Below the pieces are notes generated by a model, which saw nothing but the letters and a program-made list of their open reading frames with translations, had not been told where the DNA came from and did not search any database. A DNA stretch of 38,914 nt from a virus. The stretch spans positions 1 through 38,914 of IMG/VR virus record IMGVR_UViG_3300033996_001948; one strand, given 5' to 3'. Numbering within the stretch: the first letter of the stretch is position 1; the number at the start of each line of letters is the position of its first letter. The position numbers were made by a program, and so were the translations under genes. Shown here piece after piece: positions 1-38,914 of the stretch.

Positions 1-127
1 TCGTCATCGATCCACGGCGTCATATGCGCCAGCCATGGCGGCATGACGTACGCGGGGCATGCGCTCGCATCGCCGGCTCTCCCAGCCTCCGGCGACAGTG
101 CAGCAAGTAGACACGCACGCTCGTGCC
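1..127. repeat. Terminal direct repeat, left copy (assembly overlap)
   Basis: Bases 1-127 are identical to 38788-38914. A repeat of exactly 127 bases at both ends is what a de Bruijn assembler leaves when it closes a circle with k=127, so I read it as a circular or circularly permuted genome and not as a biological terminal repeat. The repeat lies inside a coding sequence, which fits that reading. Confidence 0.93.
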
Positions 128-209
128 CGTCGGTCCACTGCTGGCGGACGATGCGGTCCTCCGCGATCATCGTGTCGAGTCGCGCGACCCGCTCCTCCAT
201 GTCTGTCAT
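1..209 (-). CDS. Alanine-rich paralogue A, N-terminal part (gene crosses the contig ends)
   Basis: The ATG is at 209-207; the frame runs off the left end and continues at 38787 down to the stop at 38250, giving 248 aa in the circular genome. The visible N-terminal part begins MTDMEERVARLDTMIAEDRI and contains the family block WTDGHERACLLAALSPE and CPAYVMPPWLAHMTPWIDD. Its start overlaps the stop of paralogue B by 4 bases (ATGA). The function is not recognised. Two tandem paralogues lie upstream and a Rad52-type gene lies downstream, so it belongs to the leftward early operon. Confidence 0.85.
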   Translation of the reverse strand, partial: MTDMEERVARLDTMIAEDRIVRQQWTDGHERACLLAALSPEAGRAGDASACPAYVMPPWLAHMTPWIDD

Positions 210-892
210 CGCTCGCTCCTCTCGATCTCCGCCTCGATTGCATCAAGCACCGCAGCCGCGATGCGGTCCGATGCCGCCGCTCCCGCCGCCCTCGACGCCT
301 CCGCCGCCGATGCAGCCGATGCAGCCGCTCTCGCCGCTTTCGCCGCTCTCGCCACCTCCGCCGCCGATGCAGCCGATGCGGCCGCTCTCCTCGCCGCCTC
401 CCCCGCCAACACCACCGACCACGACACCGCCGCCCCCGCCGCCGCATCGCGCACCGCCACCCGCTCAGACTCGGGTGCGCCGCGACGCAGCCACTCGAGC
501 ACCCTGTCGATCGCAGAGAGGGCGCGGGCCTCATCGTCGGGACAGTGAGCGCGCGCCTCGGCCACGATCGCGATGAGCGACGCGATTCGAGCGCGCTCCC
601 ATGCGGCACCGTCGAGACGGTGCCATCGACGCGCGAGATCCGCATAGCGTCGGATGATGCGAGGCCACGCTTCGTCGCTCACCTCATCATCGATCCACGG
701 TGTCAGATGCGCGAGCCACACGGGCATGACGTGTGCGGGACACGCGCCCACGTTACCATCTCTCGCGACCTCGGGGCTAAGAGCAGCGAGCAGACACGCA
801 CGCTCGTGCCCGTCCGTCCACTCGTGGCGGATGATGCGTCCCTCTTCGATCATCGTGTCGAGTCGCGCGACCCGCTCCTCCATGTCTGTCAT
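206..892 (-). CDS. Alanine-rich paralogue B, unknown function
   Basis: 228 aa. I chose the ATG at 892-890 because it gives the same MTDMEERV start as the paralogues and a 4-base ATGA overlap with paralogue C. The longer open frame upstream reads through the Gly-rich antisense of paralogue C and is not credible. The architecture is a 25-residue helix, the block WTDGHERACLLAALSPE, CPAHVMPVWLAHLTPWIDDEVS, a helical middle, then Ala/Ser/Arg repeats and ASDRIAAAVLDAIEAEIERSER. No catalytic motif or membrane segment is seen. It could be a structural or protein-binding early protein; no function is assigned. Confidence 0.87.
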   Translation of the reverse strand: MTDMEERVARLDTMIEEGRIIRHEWTDGHERACLLAALSPEVARDGNVGACPAHVMPVWLAHLTPWIDDEVSDEAWPRIIRRYADLARRWHRLDGAAWERARIASLIAIVAEARAHCPDDEARALSAIDRVLEWLRRGAPESERVAVRDAAAGAAVSWSVVLAGEAARRAAASAASAAEVARAAKAARAAASAASAAEASRAAGAAASDRIAAAVLDAIEAEIERSER

Positions 893-1572
893 CGCTCGCT
901 CCTCTCGATCTCTGCCTCGATCGCGTCGAGGACCGCCGTCGCGATGCGGTCCGACGCCTCCGACGCCGCCGCCCACGCCGCATCCGCCGCCGACGACGCC
1001 GCCCGCGCCGACGACGCCGCCCGCGCCGCCGCCGCCGCCACCGACGCCGCCGACGCCGCCGCCGCCTCTCCCGCCCACGCCGCCCGCGCCGCCGCCCTCG
1101 TCGCCTTCGTCGCCGCCCTCGTCGCCTCCGACACCGCCGCCCGCTCAGACTCCGGTGCGCCGCGCCGCAGCCACTCGAGCACCCCGTCGATCGCAGCCAG
1201 TGCGCGCTCCTCGCTCGAAGGGCAGTTCAGGCGCGCTTCGCTCACAATCGCGATGAGAGACGCGATTCGAGCGCGCTCCCATGCAGCATCGTCCAGCGCG
1301 CTCCATCGTCGTGCGAGCGCAGCGTAGCGCCGGATGACCCCAGGCCACGCATCCTCAGAGACCTCGTCATCGATCCACGGCGTCAGATGCGCGAGCCACG
1401 GCGGCATGACATGCGCGGGGCATGCGCTCGCGCGCTCGGCTTTGCCGGTTTCGGGTGAGAGAGCAGCGAGCAGACACGCGCGCTCGTGCCCGTCGGTCCA
1501 CCGCTGGCGGATGATGCGGTCCTCCGCGATCATCGCGTTGAGTCGCGAGACCCGCTCCTGCATGTCTGTCAT
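889..1572 (-). CDS. Alanine-rich paralogue C, unknown function
   Basis: 227 aa, first of the three paralogues to be transcribed. It starts MTDMQERVSRLNAMIAEDRI and shares with A and B the WTDGHERACLLAALSPE and HLTPWIDDEVS blocks, VLEWLRRGAPESER, and the C-terminus ATAVLDAIEAEIERSER. The middle (about residues 145-205) is almost only Ala, Ser, Arg and Trp. It overlaps the upstream four-cysteine gene and downstream paralogue B by 4 bases each, so translation is probably coupled. Function unknown. Confidence 0.87.
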   Translation of the reverse strand: MTDMQERVSRLNAMIAEDRIIRQRWTDGHERACLLAALSPETGKAERASACPAHVMPPWLAHLTPWIDDEVSEDAWPGVIRRYAALARRWSALDDAAWERARIASLIAIVSEARLNCPSSEERALAAIDGVLEWLRRGAPESERAAVSEATRAATKATRAAARAAWAGEAAAASAASVAAAAARAASSARAASSAADAAWAAASEASDRIATAVLDAIEAEIERSER

Positions 1573-1865
1573 CGCTCCTCGCCTTCGTCCGACTCGTCAC
1601 TCTTCCAGGGACGCACCGGGTGTAGGGGGCACCTCGTCACGCTGCACGTCCCGATGCGCTGCCGGGGCGCCGGGTCGGAGTCCCCGCCCTGACAGTCCCA
1701 GCACTTCGCTGTGATGGCGAGTCGGAGTGACGTGGGCCTGCGCTTCGCCTTCTCGATGGGATCGAGGCGTCTGGCCTTCACGCCGGCCGCCCTCATGGCC
1801 GCCGACGCCTCCCGGGCCTTGTCCAGTGCTGATGTAGCAGGGCCATCCTGGTGCACGTCTGTCAT
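1569..1865 (-). CDS. Small four-cysteine, zinc-binding-like phage protein
   Basis: 98 aa. Cysteines at about 55, 58, 74 and 79 form CWDC...CSVTRC followed by PLHPVRPW. Many phages carry small proteins with the pattern AKCxxCxGG...C...CPLxPYR, and this fits that type; their function is unknown. I chose the ATG at 1865 because it overlaps the upstream stop by ATGA; a longer frame to 1988 would overlap the whole upstream gene. The N-terminal half is basic and helical. Zinc binding is inferred from spacing only. Confidence 0.8.
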   Translation of the reverse strand: MTDVHQDGPATSALDKAREASAAMRAAGVKARRLDPIEKAKRRPTSLRLAITAKCWDCQGGDSDPAPRQRIGTCSVTRCPLHPVRPWKSDESDEGEER

Positions 1866-2068
1866 CGCTCCTCGCCTCCCGGGCCGACCGCGTCGGCCTC
1901 CATCCAGTCGACGATCCATGACAGACCGTCGCAGGTCCACTCCTGACACCGCTCGTGGCGCTCGAGGTCGAGTGACGCGACATGACACGCGATCCGCTCT
2001 GCGGTCTCCGCCCTCGACGCGTCGACCGCTATCTGCGCGCGCATACGCACTGTCACCCGTACCATCAT
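1862..2068 (-). CDS. Hypothetical 68-aa protein
   Basis: 68 aa, starting MMVRVTVRMRAQIAVDASRA. The start lies in a 4-base ATGA overlap with the upstream gene and the stop overlaps the next start the same way. It has Cys at three positions (IACHV, ERCQEWTCDG) and a tryptophan-rich acidic end (LSWIVDWMEADAV). Family not recognised. The alternative ATG upstream at 2218 would overlap the neighbour by about 150 bases and is less likely. Confidence 0.7.
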   Translation of the reverse strand: MMVRVTVRMRAQIAVDASRAETAERIACHVASLDLERHERCQEWTCDGLSWIVDWMEADAVGPGGEER

Positions 2069-2427
2069 CGCGACCACCCCCTCATACGCTGCTCCGCGCG
2101 AGCGCGTAGCATCTCGACCGCGTACCGCAGCTCGCTCGAGCTCGCCCGGATGATCTCGCCCTCGACCTCCGCCCACGCGACATACAGCCGATCGCGCAGA
2201 CGGATCGTGATCCCGCACTCGGTAGCGCCGTCGTCTAGTAGCCGCTGAACGATGCGGTCCTCCACGGACACGTCGTCCACATCACTATCGCCCGCGTCGA
2301 GGGCGTCTAGATGCTCCGCGAGTGCATCGGCCACAACGCTCCCCTGCGCCCGATCCGACGCGTCCGCAGCACGGAGCAGACGCTCCGCGAGCGCGTCCGC
2401 GATATGCGCCACGACCCGCGTCGTCAT
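2065..2427 (-). CDS. Hypothetical 120-aa early protein
   Basis: 120 aa, starting MTTRVVAHIADALAERLLRA. It is rich in Ala, Asp and Arg, mostly predicted helix, with an acidic middle (DALDAGDSDVDDVSVEDRI) and a C-terminal helix rich in Arg and Glu. No known domain recognised. Both ends overlap neighbours by 4 bases, placing it in the leftward early operon. Confidence 0.78.
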   Translation of the reverse strand: MTTRVVAHIADALAERLLRAADASDRAQGSVVADALAEHLDALDAGDSDVDDVSVEDRIVQRLLDDGATECGITIRLRDRLYVAWAEVEGEIIRASSSELRYAVEMLRARAEQRMRGWSR

Positions 2428-2723
2428 GCGTCACCCCCGAGCAGCGCCTCGAGAGCGTGTTCGAGCGTCTCGCCGACTCGAGCGTGCGCCACCTCGCCGC
2501 CGACGCCGCACGCGGCCGCGAGCCAACCCGCGCCCGTCGCGGAAATGACGACGGTATATCCGCGCTCCGTGTAGCGCGTACGAATCAGCTCGCCGAGATC
2601 CCCGACAGTCATCTCTCCGATCGTCGACTCGTCGCACGGCTCAAGCTCGGCGGGCGACATCTCATCGCCAGGCCCGAGATCACGCACACGACCGACACCA
2701 CTCCACACATCATGGTCACTCAT
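2424..2723 (-). CDS. Hypothetical 99-aa protein, first gene of the leftward operon
   Basis: 99 aa, starting MSDHDVWSGVGRVRDLGPGDE. A good Shine-Dalgarno sequence (GGAGGTGG on the minus strand) stands upstream of the ATG. The middle, TVGDLGELIRTRYTERGYTVVISATGAGWLAAACG, looks like a small alpha/beta fold, but I do not recognise a family. As the first gene after the divergent control region it should be expressed earliest from the leftward promoter. Confidence 0.8.
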   Translation of the reverse strand: MSDHDVWSGVGRVRDLGPGDEMSPAELEPCDESTIGEMTVGDLGELIRTRYTERGYTVVISATGAGWLAAACGVGGEVAHARVGETLEHALEALLGGDA

Positions 2724-2740
2724 ACACCACCTCCGACGCC

Positions 2741-2769
2741 GTTATCGCACGTCGCGATTCGACGTGCAA
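2741..2769 (-). promoter_or_regulatory. Leftward early promoter candidate
   Basis: On the minus strand TTGCAC (2769-2764), a 17-base spacer and GATAAC (2746-2741) give a sigma70-like arrangement, 18 bases upstream of the first leftward ATG. Matches to TTGACA and TATAAT are partial (3/6 and 4/6). The spacer and -35 box lie inside the inverted repeats, which would make repression by steric block easy. Confidence 0.45.
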
Positions 2770-2813: not shown

Positions 2814-3137
2814 ATGAGAAAAGCCACTCTCGCCGCGATGCGGCGCCGTCTGCGCACGTCCCGAATCGACGCGGGACACACTACTATCAGCCTCGCGAAA
2901 AAGCTCGGCGCCACGCACTCGACGATCGTCCGATGGGAGCGCGGGGACACGGAGCCGCGCGCGAGCGATCTCCTGCGATGGGCAGAGTCGTGCGACGTGT
3001 CCGCGTCGTGGCTGCTATGCGGGTCGATGTCGATCGTCGTCACTCCGGACCGCCGCGTCGAGCCGCGCGAGACTATCGATGACACTCTCGCGCGCGAGGC
3101 TAGCCGCCTACGCGACCTAGATCCGGTGGAGCGATGA
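2814..3137 (+). CDS. XRE-family HTH transcriptional regulator
   Basis: 107 aa. Residues about 23-52 (TISLAKKLGATHSTIVRWERGDTEPRASDLLRW) are a typical XRE helix-turn-helix (cI/Cro type): helix, turn after LGA, and a recognition helix with STIVRWERG. VSASWLLCG follows, a common linker in this family. The start is the ATG after GGTGGGAG. It lies divergently from the leftward operon across paired inverted repeats, so it is the likely lytic/early switch. There is no integrase, so a role in classical lysogeny is uncertain. Confidence 0.88.
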   Translation: MRKATLAAMRRRLRTSRIDAGHTTISLAKKLGATHSTIVRWERGDTEPRASDLLRWAESCDVSASWLLCGSMSIVVTPDRRVEPRETIDDTLAREASRLRDLDPVER

Positions 3138-29580: not shown

Positions 29581-30015
29581 ATGGCCGATAACGTCCAGCT
29601 CCCCGCGAATACCGGGAAGGTCGCGACCCGCGAGGTCACCTACAGCGGCGAAACCGCGCAGGCTCAAGCGGTCGGGCTCGTCGTCGTGAGTGGCGCCGAT
29701 GACGCTAAGGTCGCGACCGACGTCAGCGCGCAGGAGCCACTGCCGGTCAAAGACACCGGTGGCGCCGACTCACCCGGAAGGATGATCCTTGCGGTGCTTC
29801 AGAGCCCGCCTGGATTCGACAGCACGCTACGCCGCGCGAGGTCGACTGCCGTCATTGAAAGCGGGACTGTCACGACTGTCACGACTGTCACGACTGTCAC
29901 GACTGTCGCGACTGTCACGGGTCTCACGAACATCGACGGCCGAAACGGGTCAATGCTCATCAACCAAACCAACCTCAGCGCGTGGGCCGATGTCGTTCGC
30001 GCAAGGATCACCTGA
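29581..30015 (+). CDS. Virion protein with VTT repeats, 144 aa
   Basis: 144 aa. Starts MADNVQLPANTGKVATREVT and ends with a VTTVTTVTTVTTVATVT run and GLTNIDGRNGSMLINQTNLSAW. Runs of TVTTV before a short end domain are common in phage tail-region proteins and probably form a fibrous stalk. The run is encoded by 9-base tandem repeats. Stop TGA shares a base with the next ATG. Confidence 0.75.
   Translation: MADNVQLPANTGKVATREVTYSGETAQAQAVGLVVVSGADDAKVATDVSAQEPLPVKDTGGADSPGRMILAVLQSPPGFDSTLRRARSTAVIESGTVTTVTTVTTVTTVATVTGLTNIDGRNGSMLINQTNLSAWADVVRARIT
29865..29918 (+). repeat. Six 9-base tandem repeats GACTGTCAC
   Basis: Six consecutive units from 29865 to 29918, five perfect and one (29901) GACTGTCGC. 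Each adds three residues (VTT) without changing frame. Slippage could change stalk length. Confidence 0.9.
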
Positions 30016-31810: not shown

Positions 31811-32329
31811 ATGCTGCTACTCCTATTCCAGCAAGCGACCGGTGCATACGCGGTGACCGCGGATGTCGGCGTGTATGCGCTCGCCGGTCAAGGTGCTGGA
31901 CTGGTGGCCATCCGCGTCATGCCGTCCGATGCCGGAGTGTATGCGCTCGACGGCCAGGACGCGACGCTATCGCGCGGCAGGACGCTGGTTTCGGATGCGG
32001 CCGCGTACGCGCTCGCCGGACGAGACGCCTCGCTGCTATCCGCGCGGCGTGTCTCATCCGACGTCGGCGCGTATGCGCTATCAGGACAGGACGCCACGCT
32101 AGCGTATGGGCGCGTGGTCGTGTCCGACGTCGGCGCGTATGCGCTATCAGGACAGGACGCCGGCCTAGTCTACTCAGGCACCGCGACGCTGGAGCCGATG
32201 GCTCCAGTCTATGTGCCTCGCGACCGTCGCTCGTGGTCTGCTGGCTACGGGCCAATCGCGTTCGAGGCGACGAGCACTCTCCTATGGGTCGTGCCTCGCG
32301 CTAGGCACACGACGACGGAGGATCAGTGA
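31811..32329 (+). CDS. Virion protein with YAL-GQDATL repeats
   Basis: 172 aa. Five tandem repeats of about 22-24 residues with the pattern (S)DVGAYALSGQDATLxxGRxxx from residue 12 to about 120, then a conserved end (PMAPVYVPRDRRSWSAGYG). Similar repeats (GxYALTGQDAxLxRGR) occur in tail-region proteins of many phages, probably as a short beta-fibre. Repeat number may vary between strains. Confidence 0.8.
   Translation: MLLLLFQQATGAYAVTADVGVYALAGQGAGLVAIRVMPSDAGVYALDGQDATLSRGRTLVSDAAAYALAGRDASLLSARRVSSDVGAYALSGQDATLAYGRVVVSDVGAYALSGQDAGLVYSGTATLEPMAPVYVPRDRRSWSAGYGPIAFEATSTLLWVVPRARHTTTEDQ
32057..32161 (+). repeat. 39-base perfect direct repeat in the YAL-repeat gene
   Basis: Bases 32057-32095 recur exactly at 32123-32161, an offset of 66 bases (22 codons). 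The identity at DNA level shows recent duplication or gene conversion of one repeat unit, while the other three units have diverged. Confidence 0.9.
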
Positions 32330-36807: not shown

Positions 36808-37046
36808 GCGAGCGGTTCGGGGTCGTCGGAGTCGTCTATGTCGCCACCGTCGCGCTCGTCGCGGTGGGATAGCGCCGCGAGGGCGCCATCCCACTTGTCC
36901 GCGATGAACGCGAGGCGCGCTTCTGGCGTGTCGGACACGTCGGCGTTGATCTCATCGATCCGAAGGATGCGCGCGCGGGTCCCCATGACAACCGCCGTGA
37001 TGCGCACGGCGACGCGTGTCAATGTCGCGTGCTCATAGCGTTTCAT
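36804..37046 (-). CDS. Hypothetical 80-aa acidic protein
   Basis: 80 aa from the ATG at 37046 with AAGGGGC upstream, inside the end of the ligase-like stub. Starts MKRYEHATLTRVAVRITAVV and ends in an acidic tail (HRDERDGGDIDDSDDPEPLA). The beta-strand-like first half and acidic tail could suit a small partner of a nucleic-acid enzyme. Family not recognised. Confidence 0.7.
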   Translation of the reverse strand: MKRYEHATLTRVAVRITAVVMGTRARILRIDEINADVSDTPEARLAFIADKWDGALAALSHRDERDGGDIDDSDDPEPLA

Positions 37047-37194
37047 CGGTGCCCCTTCGGCGCGTCGTCGCCCTCGAGAAGCACTCCGACACAGAGACCA
37101 GCGCGTTTGTGCCGTCGATCTTCTCCGTGACAACGATGCGCCGACGAAGTCGTGGAATCTTCGGGAATGCAGGGAACGTCTCGATCTCGCTCAT
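37033..37194 (-). CDS. RNA ligase-like N-terminal stub, 53 aa
   Basis: 53 aa from the ATG at 37194, with GGAGG at ideal distance. The start SEIETFPAFPKIPRLRRRIV followed by VTEKIDGTNALVSV is the N-terminus of the RNA ligase/nucleotidyltransferase family, with motif I K25-x-D-G intact. The frame then ends at residue 53, without motifs III to V. It may be a truncated relic or a small protein with a reused start domain. A frameshift could hide more, but I see no further ligase motifs in the other frames. Longer open frames upstream overlap other sequence without a ribosome site. Confidence 0.65.
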   Translation of the reverse strand: MSEIETFPAFPKIPRLRRRIVVTEKIDGTNALVSVSECFSRATTRRRGTDETL

Positions 37195-37309: not shown

Positions 37310-37642
37310 TCAGAACGGGATATCGTCGACTGCGCCGCCGTCGACCGCCGCGTCGAGCAGCGGCGCACTACTGCCAACCGCACTCCGTCGCACCGAGTCT
37401 GCGGGACGCACCGGCGCCGCGCCCCCCTCATAGATGTTGAGCCAGTGAGACGGCTTCCCATCTGCGGCTCGCTGGATCACTTCGCGCGATCCATCCGTGC
37501 GCTCGATGACGATGCGAGCCACATCGCGATCGAGAGACGCAGATAGCCCGCGCTCACCACGCCACGCGGCAAGCACCGTGAGCGGCTTCGCGTCGCGCTG
37601 CTTTGCTTTGATCACCAACTTGAAATCGGGTCGATTCGGCAT
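37310..37642 (-). CDS. Single-stranded DNA-binding-like protein
   Basis: 110 aa from the ATG at 37642 with AAGGAGA upstream. Starts MPNRPDFKLVIKAKQRDAKP with a beta-rich core (LTVLAAWRGERGLSASLDRDVARIVIERTDG) and ends VDGGAVDDIPF. The acidic DDIPF tip is the signature of SSB C-termini that dock DNA-processing partners. Fold is smaller than bacterial SSB and the OB-fold is not proven. It lies next to the Rad52-type gene, a pairing common in phage recombination modules. Confidence 0.72.
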   Translation of the reverse strand: MPNRPDFKLVIKAKQRDAKPLTVLAAWRGERGLSASLDRDVARIVIERTDGSREVIQRAADGKPSHWLNIYEGGAAPVRPADSVRRSAVGSSAPLLDAAVDGGAVDDIPF

Positions 37643-37650
37643 CTGTCTCC

Positions 37651-38253
37651 TTACGCTTTCTTGACGTTGCTTCGGAGCCACGTCTTTTGTGCCTCCGTGA
37701 GCGTTCCCCAGACCGCGCGCTTGCCCGGCTCCGGCAGAGTCGGCCACTCAGCCGCGAGCTTTGTCAGCACGGGATCCGGCGCATGCGCCGGCGGCGCCGC
37801 GGTCTCTTCGACGTGCTCCTGGGCCTTGTCGTATAGCGCAAGCCCGACCTGCATTCCGAGGGACTTCGCGCACCTCTTCAGGGCGTCCGTTGCTGCCTCT
37901 TTCTCTGCGCTTTCGACCGCGACTCCGAGCCTACGATCGACACCGTGGCCGTGCCCCACATCGCAAATCTGGAGTGACTCTAGACGCTCTCCCGAGCGCC
38001 GCTGTAGCGTGAGTCGACACCGGCACGCGTACGACACGACCCATCGCTGGCGGTCGTCCTGCTCGCGAGCGATCTCGCGCGTGTCTGTCGCATCGTAGCA
38101 CCACGAGCCATCACCGAATGCTCGATTCAGCGTCGCGATCACGCGCCACCCTGCGATGTATGATAGCGTGGCACCGCCCTGCGTACGTGTCTCGACGTGC
38201 TCGCGCGGGATCGGCGCGTCGAGGATAGCCCTCTGCTCTGCTGTGATGATCAT
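37651..38253 (-). CDS. Rad52-type single-strand annealing protein
   Basis: 200 aa from the ATG at 38253 (ATGA overlap with paralogue A). The core TLSYIAGWRVIATLNRAFGDGSWCYDATDTRE (29-60) and VESAEKEAATDALKRCAKSLGMQVGLALYDK (113-143) match the Rad52/22 family, including the EKEAxTDALKRAxxxFGxxxGxxLYDK block. It anneals complementary single strands in phage recombination, together with the SSB-like protein and RusA. A longer frame upstream runs antisense through the Ala-rich gene and is false. Confidence 0.9.
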   Translation of the reverse strand: MIITAEQRAILDAPIPREHVETRTQGGATLSYIAGWRVIATLNRAFGDGSWCYDATDTREIAREQDDRQRWVVSYACRCRLTLQRRSGERLESLQICDVGHGHGVDRRLGVAVESAEKEAATDALKRCAKSLGMQVGLALYDKAQEHVEETAAPPAHAPDPVLTKLAAEWPTLPEPGKRAVWGTLTEAQKTWLRSNVKKA

Positions 38254-38914
38254 GCCTGCTCGCTCCTCTCGATTTCCGCTTCGATCGCGTCGAGGACCGC
38301 CGTCGCGATGCGGTCCGACGCCTCCGACGCCGCCGCCCACGCCGCATCCGACGCCGCATCCGACGCCGCATCCGACGCCGCCGACTCCGCCGCCCTGGCC
38401 CCCGCCAACCACGCCACCTCCTCCGCAGCCGACGCTACCGCCGACGACGCCGACGCCGCCGCCCTCGACGCCGCCCACGCCGCTCGCGCCGCCGCCCACG
38501 CCGCCGACTCCGCCGCCGACTCCGCCGCCTCCGCCCACGCCGCATCCGACGCCGACACCGCCGCCCGTTCAGACTCCGGTGCACCGCGCCGCAGCCACTC
38601 GAGCACCGCGTCGATCGCAGAGAGGGCGCGGACCTCATCGGCGGGACAGTGCAGACGCGCCTCGCCCACGATCGCGATGAGAGACGCGACGCGAGCGCGC
38701 TCCCATGCAGCATCGTCCAGCGCGCTCCATCGACGCGCGAGCGCCGCGTAGCGCCGGATGACTCCAGGCCACGCGTGAGCGGACACTTCGTCATCGATCC
38801 ACGGCGTCATATGCGCCAGCCATGGCGGCATGACGTACGCGGGGCATGCGCTCGCATCGCCGGCTCTCCCAGCCTCCGGCGACAGTGCAGCAAGTAGACA
38901 CGCACGCTCGTGCC
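38250..38914 (-). CDS. Alanine-rich paralogue A, C-terminal part (5' end lies past the contig end)
   Basis: Continuation of the gene that starts at 209. It reads on from the conserved MPPWLAHMTPWIDDEVS block through IRRYAALARRW, AAWERARVASLIAIVGEAR and VLEWLRRGAPESERAAV. An alanine-rich stretch of roughly 75 residues follows, then the family C-terminus ASDRIATAVLDAIEAEIERS. The stop overlaps the ATG of the Rad52-type gene by 4 bases. The Ala-rich stretch is predicted helical and is longer than in paralogues B and C, which accounts for the extra 20 residues. The function is unknown. Confidence 0.87.
   Translation of the reverse strand, partial: HERACLLAALSPEAGRAGDASACPAYVMPPWLAHMTPWIDDEVSAHAWPGVIRRYAALARRWSALDDAAWERARVASLIAIVGEARLHCPADEVRALSAIDAVLEWLRRGAPESERAAVSASDAAWAEAAESAAESAAWAAARAAWAASRAAASASSAVASAAEEVAWLAGARAAESAASDAASDAASDAAWAAASEASDRIATAVLDAIEAEIERSEQA
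38788..38914. repeat. Terminal direct repeat, right copy (assembly overlap)
   Basis: Second copy of the 127-base end repeat. Joining the copies restores a full reading frame for the first alanine-rich paralogue (209 nt on the left plus 538 nt on the right = 249 codons including stop), which supports circular closure. Confidence 0.93.

Follow-up and report, generated by a model that had tools for sequence, protein, structure and literature searches.

A described parallel to the genes considered here is AcrID1, for which 26 of 35 homologues lie close together in four rudiviruses (PMC11065993). In those clusters (PMC11065993) an early viral gene stands in several diverged, neighbouring copies, and so do the tandem genes A, B and C of the present phage. 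An anti-CRISPR function has been shown for AcrID1; its likeness to A, B and C is one of gene arrangement. Two further proteins come into view through a distant subfamily of the A/B/C family, the YADA-type, in which alternating YAYADAYA or NANADAYA takes the place of an AAW/AAR-type tract. SpcZ of Streptomyces has in common with this subfamily a middle helical region (PF.VVHDWHA..V.PML.E ... LH.RALAGE....EW), followed by an Ala/Tyr/Asp/Asn-rich part that resembles that of the subfamily, at 36.8% identity (E 7e-15). The Streptomyces proteins that were read lack the DGRxxACxLG and CPAxxMP motifs, which A, B and C carry and which hardly vary within the phage family, and the similarity was detected through the YADA-type subfamily only, a query of the A/B/C type against plasmids returning nothing. 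For SpcZ a literature search gave no biology paper, and beyond the name no characterised function was found. In the Streptomyces genes (L132 4046-4723 and L147-L158, one of them annotated SpcZ) the middle region and an Ala/Tyr/Asn-rich second half correspond to those of the YADA-type phage proteins, and several of these genes have, within a few kb, another that encodes 1400-2000 aa. These partial relatives are found in chromosomes and plasmids and not obviously in prophages, so that some of the fold may have a role outside phages. The second protein, A0A6J5QCR4 of an uncultured Caudovirales phage in BFVD, matches the model of a YADA-type protein (E 1.4e-3, probability 1.00, TM 0.52-0.55) at similar length and 17% identity; it is itself uncharacterised, and did not appear among the matches listed for the C model.

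How does the present locus compare? The window, that is, the whole stretch of 38,914 nucleotides that was analysed (IMG/VR record IMGVR_UViG_3300033996_001948), begins and ends with the same 127 bp, and because this overlap is exact the contig closes into a circle of 38,787 bp. The break point falls within copy A, the triplicated gene itself, and both pieces of A match the family profile (E 3.6e-43 for the piece at the window end and 1e-31 for the other). The original prediction described three tandem paralogues differing mainly in an Ala-rich part, and this description holds: the shared blocks that it named are present, protein identity to C is 71% for B and 81% for A, and gaps and low identity are gathered in the alanine tract. 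Since the contig ends lie inside A, three copies are a minimum, and an uncounted, near-identical fourth copy is a more likely error than a count that is too high. A search of viral contigs with an A-specific 31-mer, which may omit very near records, returned no near-identical phage.

A, B and C belong to a leftward operon with the order g1-g2-g3-g4-C-B-A-Rad52 (Table 1), from which the gene of a Cro/CI-like regulator diverges; judged by this layout, the operon is of the early-left type. The ATGA linkage of the three copies had been thought significant. The linkage is there, but the same 4-nt overlap occurs at 7 of 7 operon junctions, and is therefore generic to the operon rather than peculiar to A, B and C. 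Rad52 does adjoin the copies, as had been proposed; the proposed SSB-like neighbour is a small protein with an acidic DDIPF tail, for which Pfam and PHROGs gave no match. The four genes upstream of C (1569-2723) have no PHROG match; g4 has a four-cysteine motif (CWDCQGG...CSVTRCPLHPVRPW) and is probably a small zinc protein. The inverted repeat between the operon and the Cro/CI-like gene, which was also picked up by a terminator scan, is a plausible operator. Elsewhere in the window, a short frame with a nucleotidyltransferase motif appears to be what remains of an RNA ligase gene, and two tandem repeats lie later in the genome.

Table 1. Coordinates of the three copies, their alanine-rich tracts and other features of the window.
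Feature	Position	Strand	Remarks
Copy A	comp(38250..38787,1..209)	-	248 aa; stop-free frame across the circular junction
Copy A, N-terminal part	1..209	-	frame continues across the circular junction
Copy A, remainder at window end	38250..38914	-	38788-38914 repeats 1-127
Copy B	206-892	-	228 aa; family profile E 5.8e-55
Copy C	889-1572	-	227 aa; family profile E 1.3e-54
Alanine-rich tract of A	38315..38565	-	9-, 12- and 21-bp tandem units; GCG in 41/43 tract Ala codons
Alanine-rich tract of B	268..389	-	57-bp in-frame tandem duplication, 89% match; GCG in 23/31 Ala codons
Alanine-rich tract of C	951..1138	-	9-30 bp tandem repeats; GCG in 34/34 tract Ala codons
ATGA overlap B/A	206-209		
ATGA overlap C/B	889-892		
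g4	1569-1865	-	directly upstream of C; ATGA-joined
g3	1862-2068	-	upstream of C; ATGA-joined
g2	2065-2427	-	upstream of C; ATGA-joined
g1	2424-2723	-	upstream of C; ATGA-joined; only a sub-threshold Pfam match
Inverted repeat	2747-2767		perfect 7-bp arms, GCACGTC-N7-GACGTGC
Cro/CI-like helix-turn-helix regulator	2814-3137	+	PF01381 E 2.2e-9; phrog_2328 repressor E 6e-14
Tandem repeat	29865-29919		six 9-bp units
Tandem repeat	32002-32161		2.4 copies of a 66-bp unit
Putative RNA ligase remnant	37033-37194		53-aa frame; motif EKIDGTN; weak RNA_ligase match, E 0.0016
SSB-like small protein	37310-37642	-	after Rad52; acidic DDIPF tail, by sequence only
Rad52/22-family annealing protein	37651-38253	-	directly after A, ATGA overlap; PF04098 E 8.1e-27
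Direct repeat at window ends	1-127 = 38788-38914		127 bp, exact

Far from being confined to this phage, the gene belongs to a large family, defined by our profiles A4 and A9. In IMG/VR the first N-terminal domain profile found 19 loci, and with the wider profile at least 106 stretches encode the family. Members are roughly 190-370 aa long and acidic (median pI 5.1). The N-domain of A, B and C bears the conserved motif EGRxIRxxW..DG.E.ACLLAALSPE....CPA.VMP.WLA.LTPW.DD, and is followed by the alanine-rich tract and a short C-terminal helix (DRI..AVLDAIE). Across 40 diverse members W21, G28, C33, L35, C51, P52, A53, M56, P57, W59, L60, A61 and D69 (numbering of L054) are invariant or nearly so, and A, B and C each carry the near-invariant W21, G28, C33, L35, C51-P52, M56, W59-L60-A61 and D69. 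A scan of genome contigs for the distant subfamily gave 26 loci, in Sphingobium, Sphingomonas, Novosphingobium, Hyphomicrobium and others, together with the partial relatives in Streptomyces; the A4 profile gave nothing in genome contigs, and neither subfamily was matched in 50,697 phage records. Pfam, PHROGs and NCBIfam gave no match to the family near the cut-off, and PADLOC only two isolated weak ones; DUF2866, DUF4638, tail fibres, JetC and ZorF appeared in these scans as weak matches that look compositional, and were rejected. The alanine tract is reminiscent of Imm5-like putative immunity proteins, but Pfam reported no immunity model for any member that was scanned. With no curated model and no match among the phage records, current annotation misses the family. 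The earlier statement that no known function matches thus stands against Pfam, PHROGs, NCBIfam and PADLOC, and also against PDB and BFVD, as described next.

An AlphaFold model of C, built on a 49-sequence alignment, has a mean pLDDT of 89.3 and a pTM of 0.78. The first 136 or so residues make up an all-helical domain; after it come helices 141-169 and 178-226, which are predicted to form an antiparallel hairpin made by the tract; confidence drops to about 53 near the hairpin turn. The model of the YADA-type subfamily is weaker (75.1). A fold search of PDB with the C model gave no clear match (best Foldseek E 3.0), VIA-align Z scores against PDB were at most 2.9 for C and at most 6.3 for the YADA-type model, which is within helical-bundle noise, and neither a BFVD fold search with the C model nor a PDB sequence search with the N-domain profile found a match. 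Zuotin, matched in the PDB sequence search by the YADA-type profile (E 7e-5), was rejected as reflecting the composition of a long charged, alanine-rich helix.

At the DNA level the tract has a character of its own. The tracts of A, B and C contain tandem units of 9 to 57 bp, as called by Tandem Repeats Finder, and their alanine codons are mostly or wholly GCG (Table 1), whereas the N-domains of the three genes use all four alanine codons. Over 68 members the median entropy of alanine codons is 0.51 bits in the tract versus 1.71 bits in the N-domain, the tract being lower in 64 of the 68. This codon bias, along with the tandem units, makes the tract look as though it was built by expansion and contraction of DNA repeats. 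The N-domain is under purifying selection and the tract is made of in-frame, GCG-rich repeats; repeat expansion may serve diversification. In a few family members, among them L104 5974-6834 (poly-Arg) and L128 5980-6699 (Thr-Pro repeats), the alanine tract passes into another frame, which may reflect a slippage frameshift, phase variation or a sequencing error.

What might such a protein do? One proposal is that it is an accessory of recombination or replication, such as a scaffold or loader, that acts with the neighbouring Rad52 and SSB-like proteins. That A and Rad52 are directly joined in one operon of the window speaks for it, as does the recurrence of annealing proteins, SSB, RecE and helicases nearby: the neighbours in close relatives include RecT, ERF, SSB, RecE, DnaB and integrase. 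The neighbourhood, to which the original prediction attached meaning, does not hold up across the family. Rad52 was found in only 3 of 55 family contigs and adjoins the family gene only in the window; the distance is 2.4 kb in G007, where the two genes are on opposite strands, and 5.2 kb in G043. RecT was found in 5 of 55, and both are mostly kilobases from the family gene. No partner is conserved, and the protein is therefore likely to act alone; the acidity of the family does not suggest direct DNA binding. Across the family this is a gene of the early region that keeps no constant partner, and a role alongside Rad52 is rather unlikely.

Does it instead serve lysogeny, immunity or superinfection exclusion as part of an early-left operon? 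At alphaproteobacterial loci the gene is found near CI-like repressors, CII, integrase, RecE and methyltransferases, and in the window the Cro/CI-like gene diverges from the operon. The gene is also carried, however, by contigs of 137-206 kb, atypical for temperate phages of this kind, and we consider this proposal distinctly unlikely.

Dosage or diversification had both been offered as reasons for keeping three copies. If dosage alone were at issue, the copies would be functionally equal and the tract neutral repeat noise, and one might point to the free variability of the tract, to its slippage-prone repeats, and to exchange between copies: the variable core sites cluster by partner copy (50 switches where 63.7 would be expected, p=0.002), a pattern suggestive of partial gene conversion. 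Against this, the proteins differ by 19-29%, and over the gap-free core of 147 codons dS is 0.4-0.6 and dN/dS is 0.16-0.36. A, B and C are old and partly mosaic, and each is under purifying selection. Moreover, one copy suffices in most relatives (48 of 55 contigs, the other 7 having two or three), and the in-genome copies elsewhere are diverged too. Age, constraint, mosaicism and divergence elsewhere all favor diversification over pure dosage, and dosage alone is a quite doubtful explanation. Adjoining copies occur in the window, in G012 and in G027. The tree unites A, B and C in a single clade (100/99), and likewise the copies in G012, those in G005 and two of those in G001 each group with their own kind; this within-genome clustering indicates that duplication recurred independently, in unrelated phages. 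That the copies are an assembly artefact is most improbable, for although the contig ends fall within A, the longest exact repeat in the circle (70 nt, no 71-mer occurring twice) is shorter than the 127-bp overlap, itself unique in the circle, so that an assembler is very unlikely to have created the copies, and they differ along their whole length, by 5-30% in 63-nt windows of the core, and have tandem counterparts in other, unrelated contigs.

The reading that we prefer, with a probability of roughly one in three, is that A, B and C are an early accessory protein directed at a host target, anti-defence being the likeliest role, and that the copies are kept for divergent targets. On this reading A, B and C would be three lineage-specific tandem copies of the protein; the N-domain would be a folded interaction module, and the hairpin an adjustable arm or an oligomerisation element. 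Early in infection the protein would bind some factor of the host, in all likelihood to blunt a defence or another host function, and diverged copies would be retained through action on different target variants, as has been suggested for the AcrID1 clusters of rudiviruses. Early expression would follow from the position of the genes near early and lysogeny-control genes. A host-acting early role would explain this position and the missing partner, as well as why tandem copies recur and stay divergent, and several diverged copies do stand side by side in A, B and C. It counts against an anti-defence role that typical anti-CRISPRs are smaller than these proteins, that PADLOC gave no more than the two weak matches, and that the partial relatives in Streptomyces do not obviously belong to prophages. 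One may go further and suppose that a conserved helical head joined to an alanine arm, the arm being remade in length and surface by GCG slippage and by gene conversion between tandem copies, is a built-in device for diversification against changing host targets or defences; this supposition is speculative, and we give it only a small chance of being right.

The tripling of a gene is in itself a known kind of event, and the value of the present case lies in a broad, unnamed family with a repeat-built arm. Although widespread in IMG/VR, the family lacks a model in Pfam, PHROGs and NCBIfam. Screens for host interaction or anti-defence activity could draw on its members as a defined set of early genes that have repeatedly been duplicated in tandem and whose variable arm is driven by repeats.
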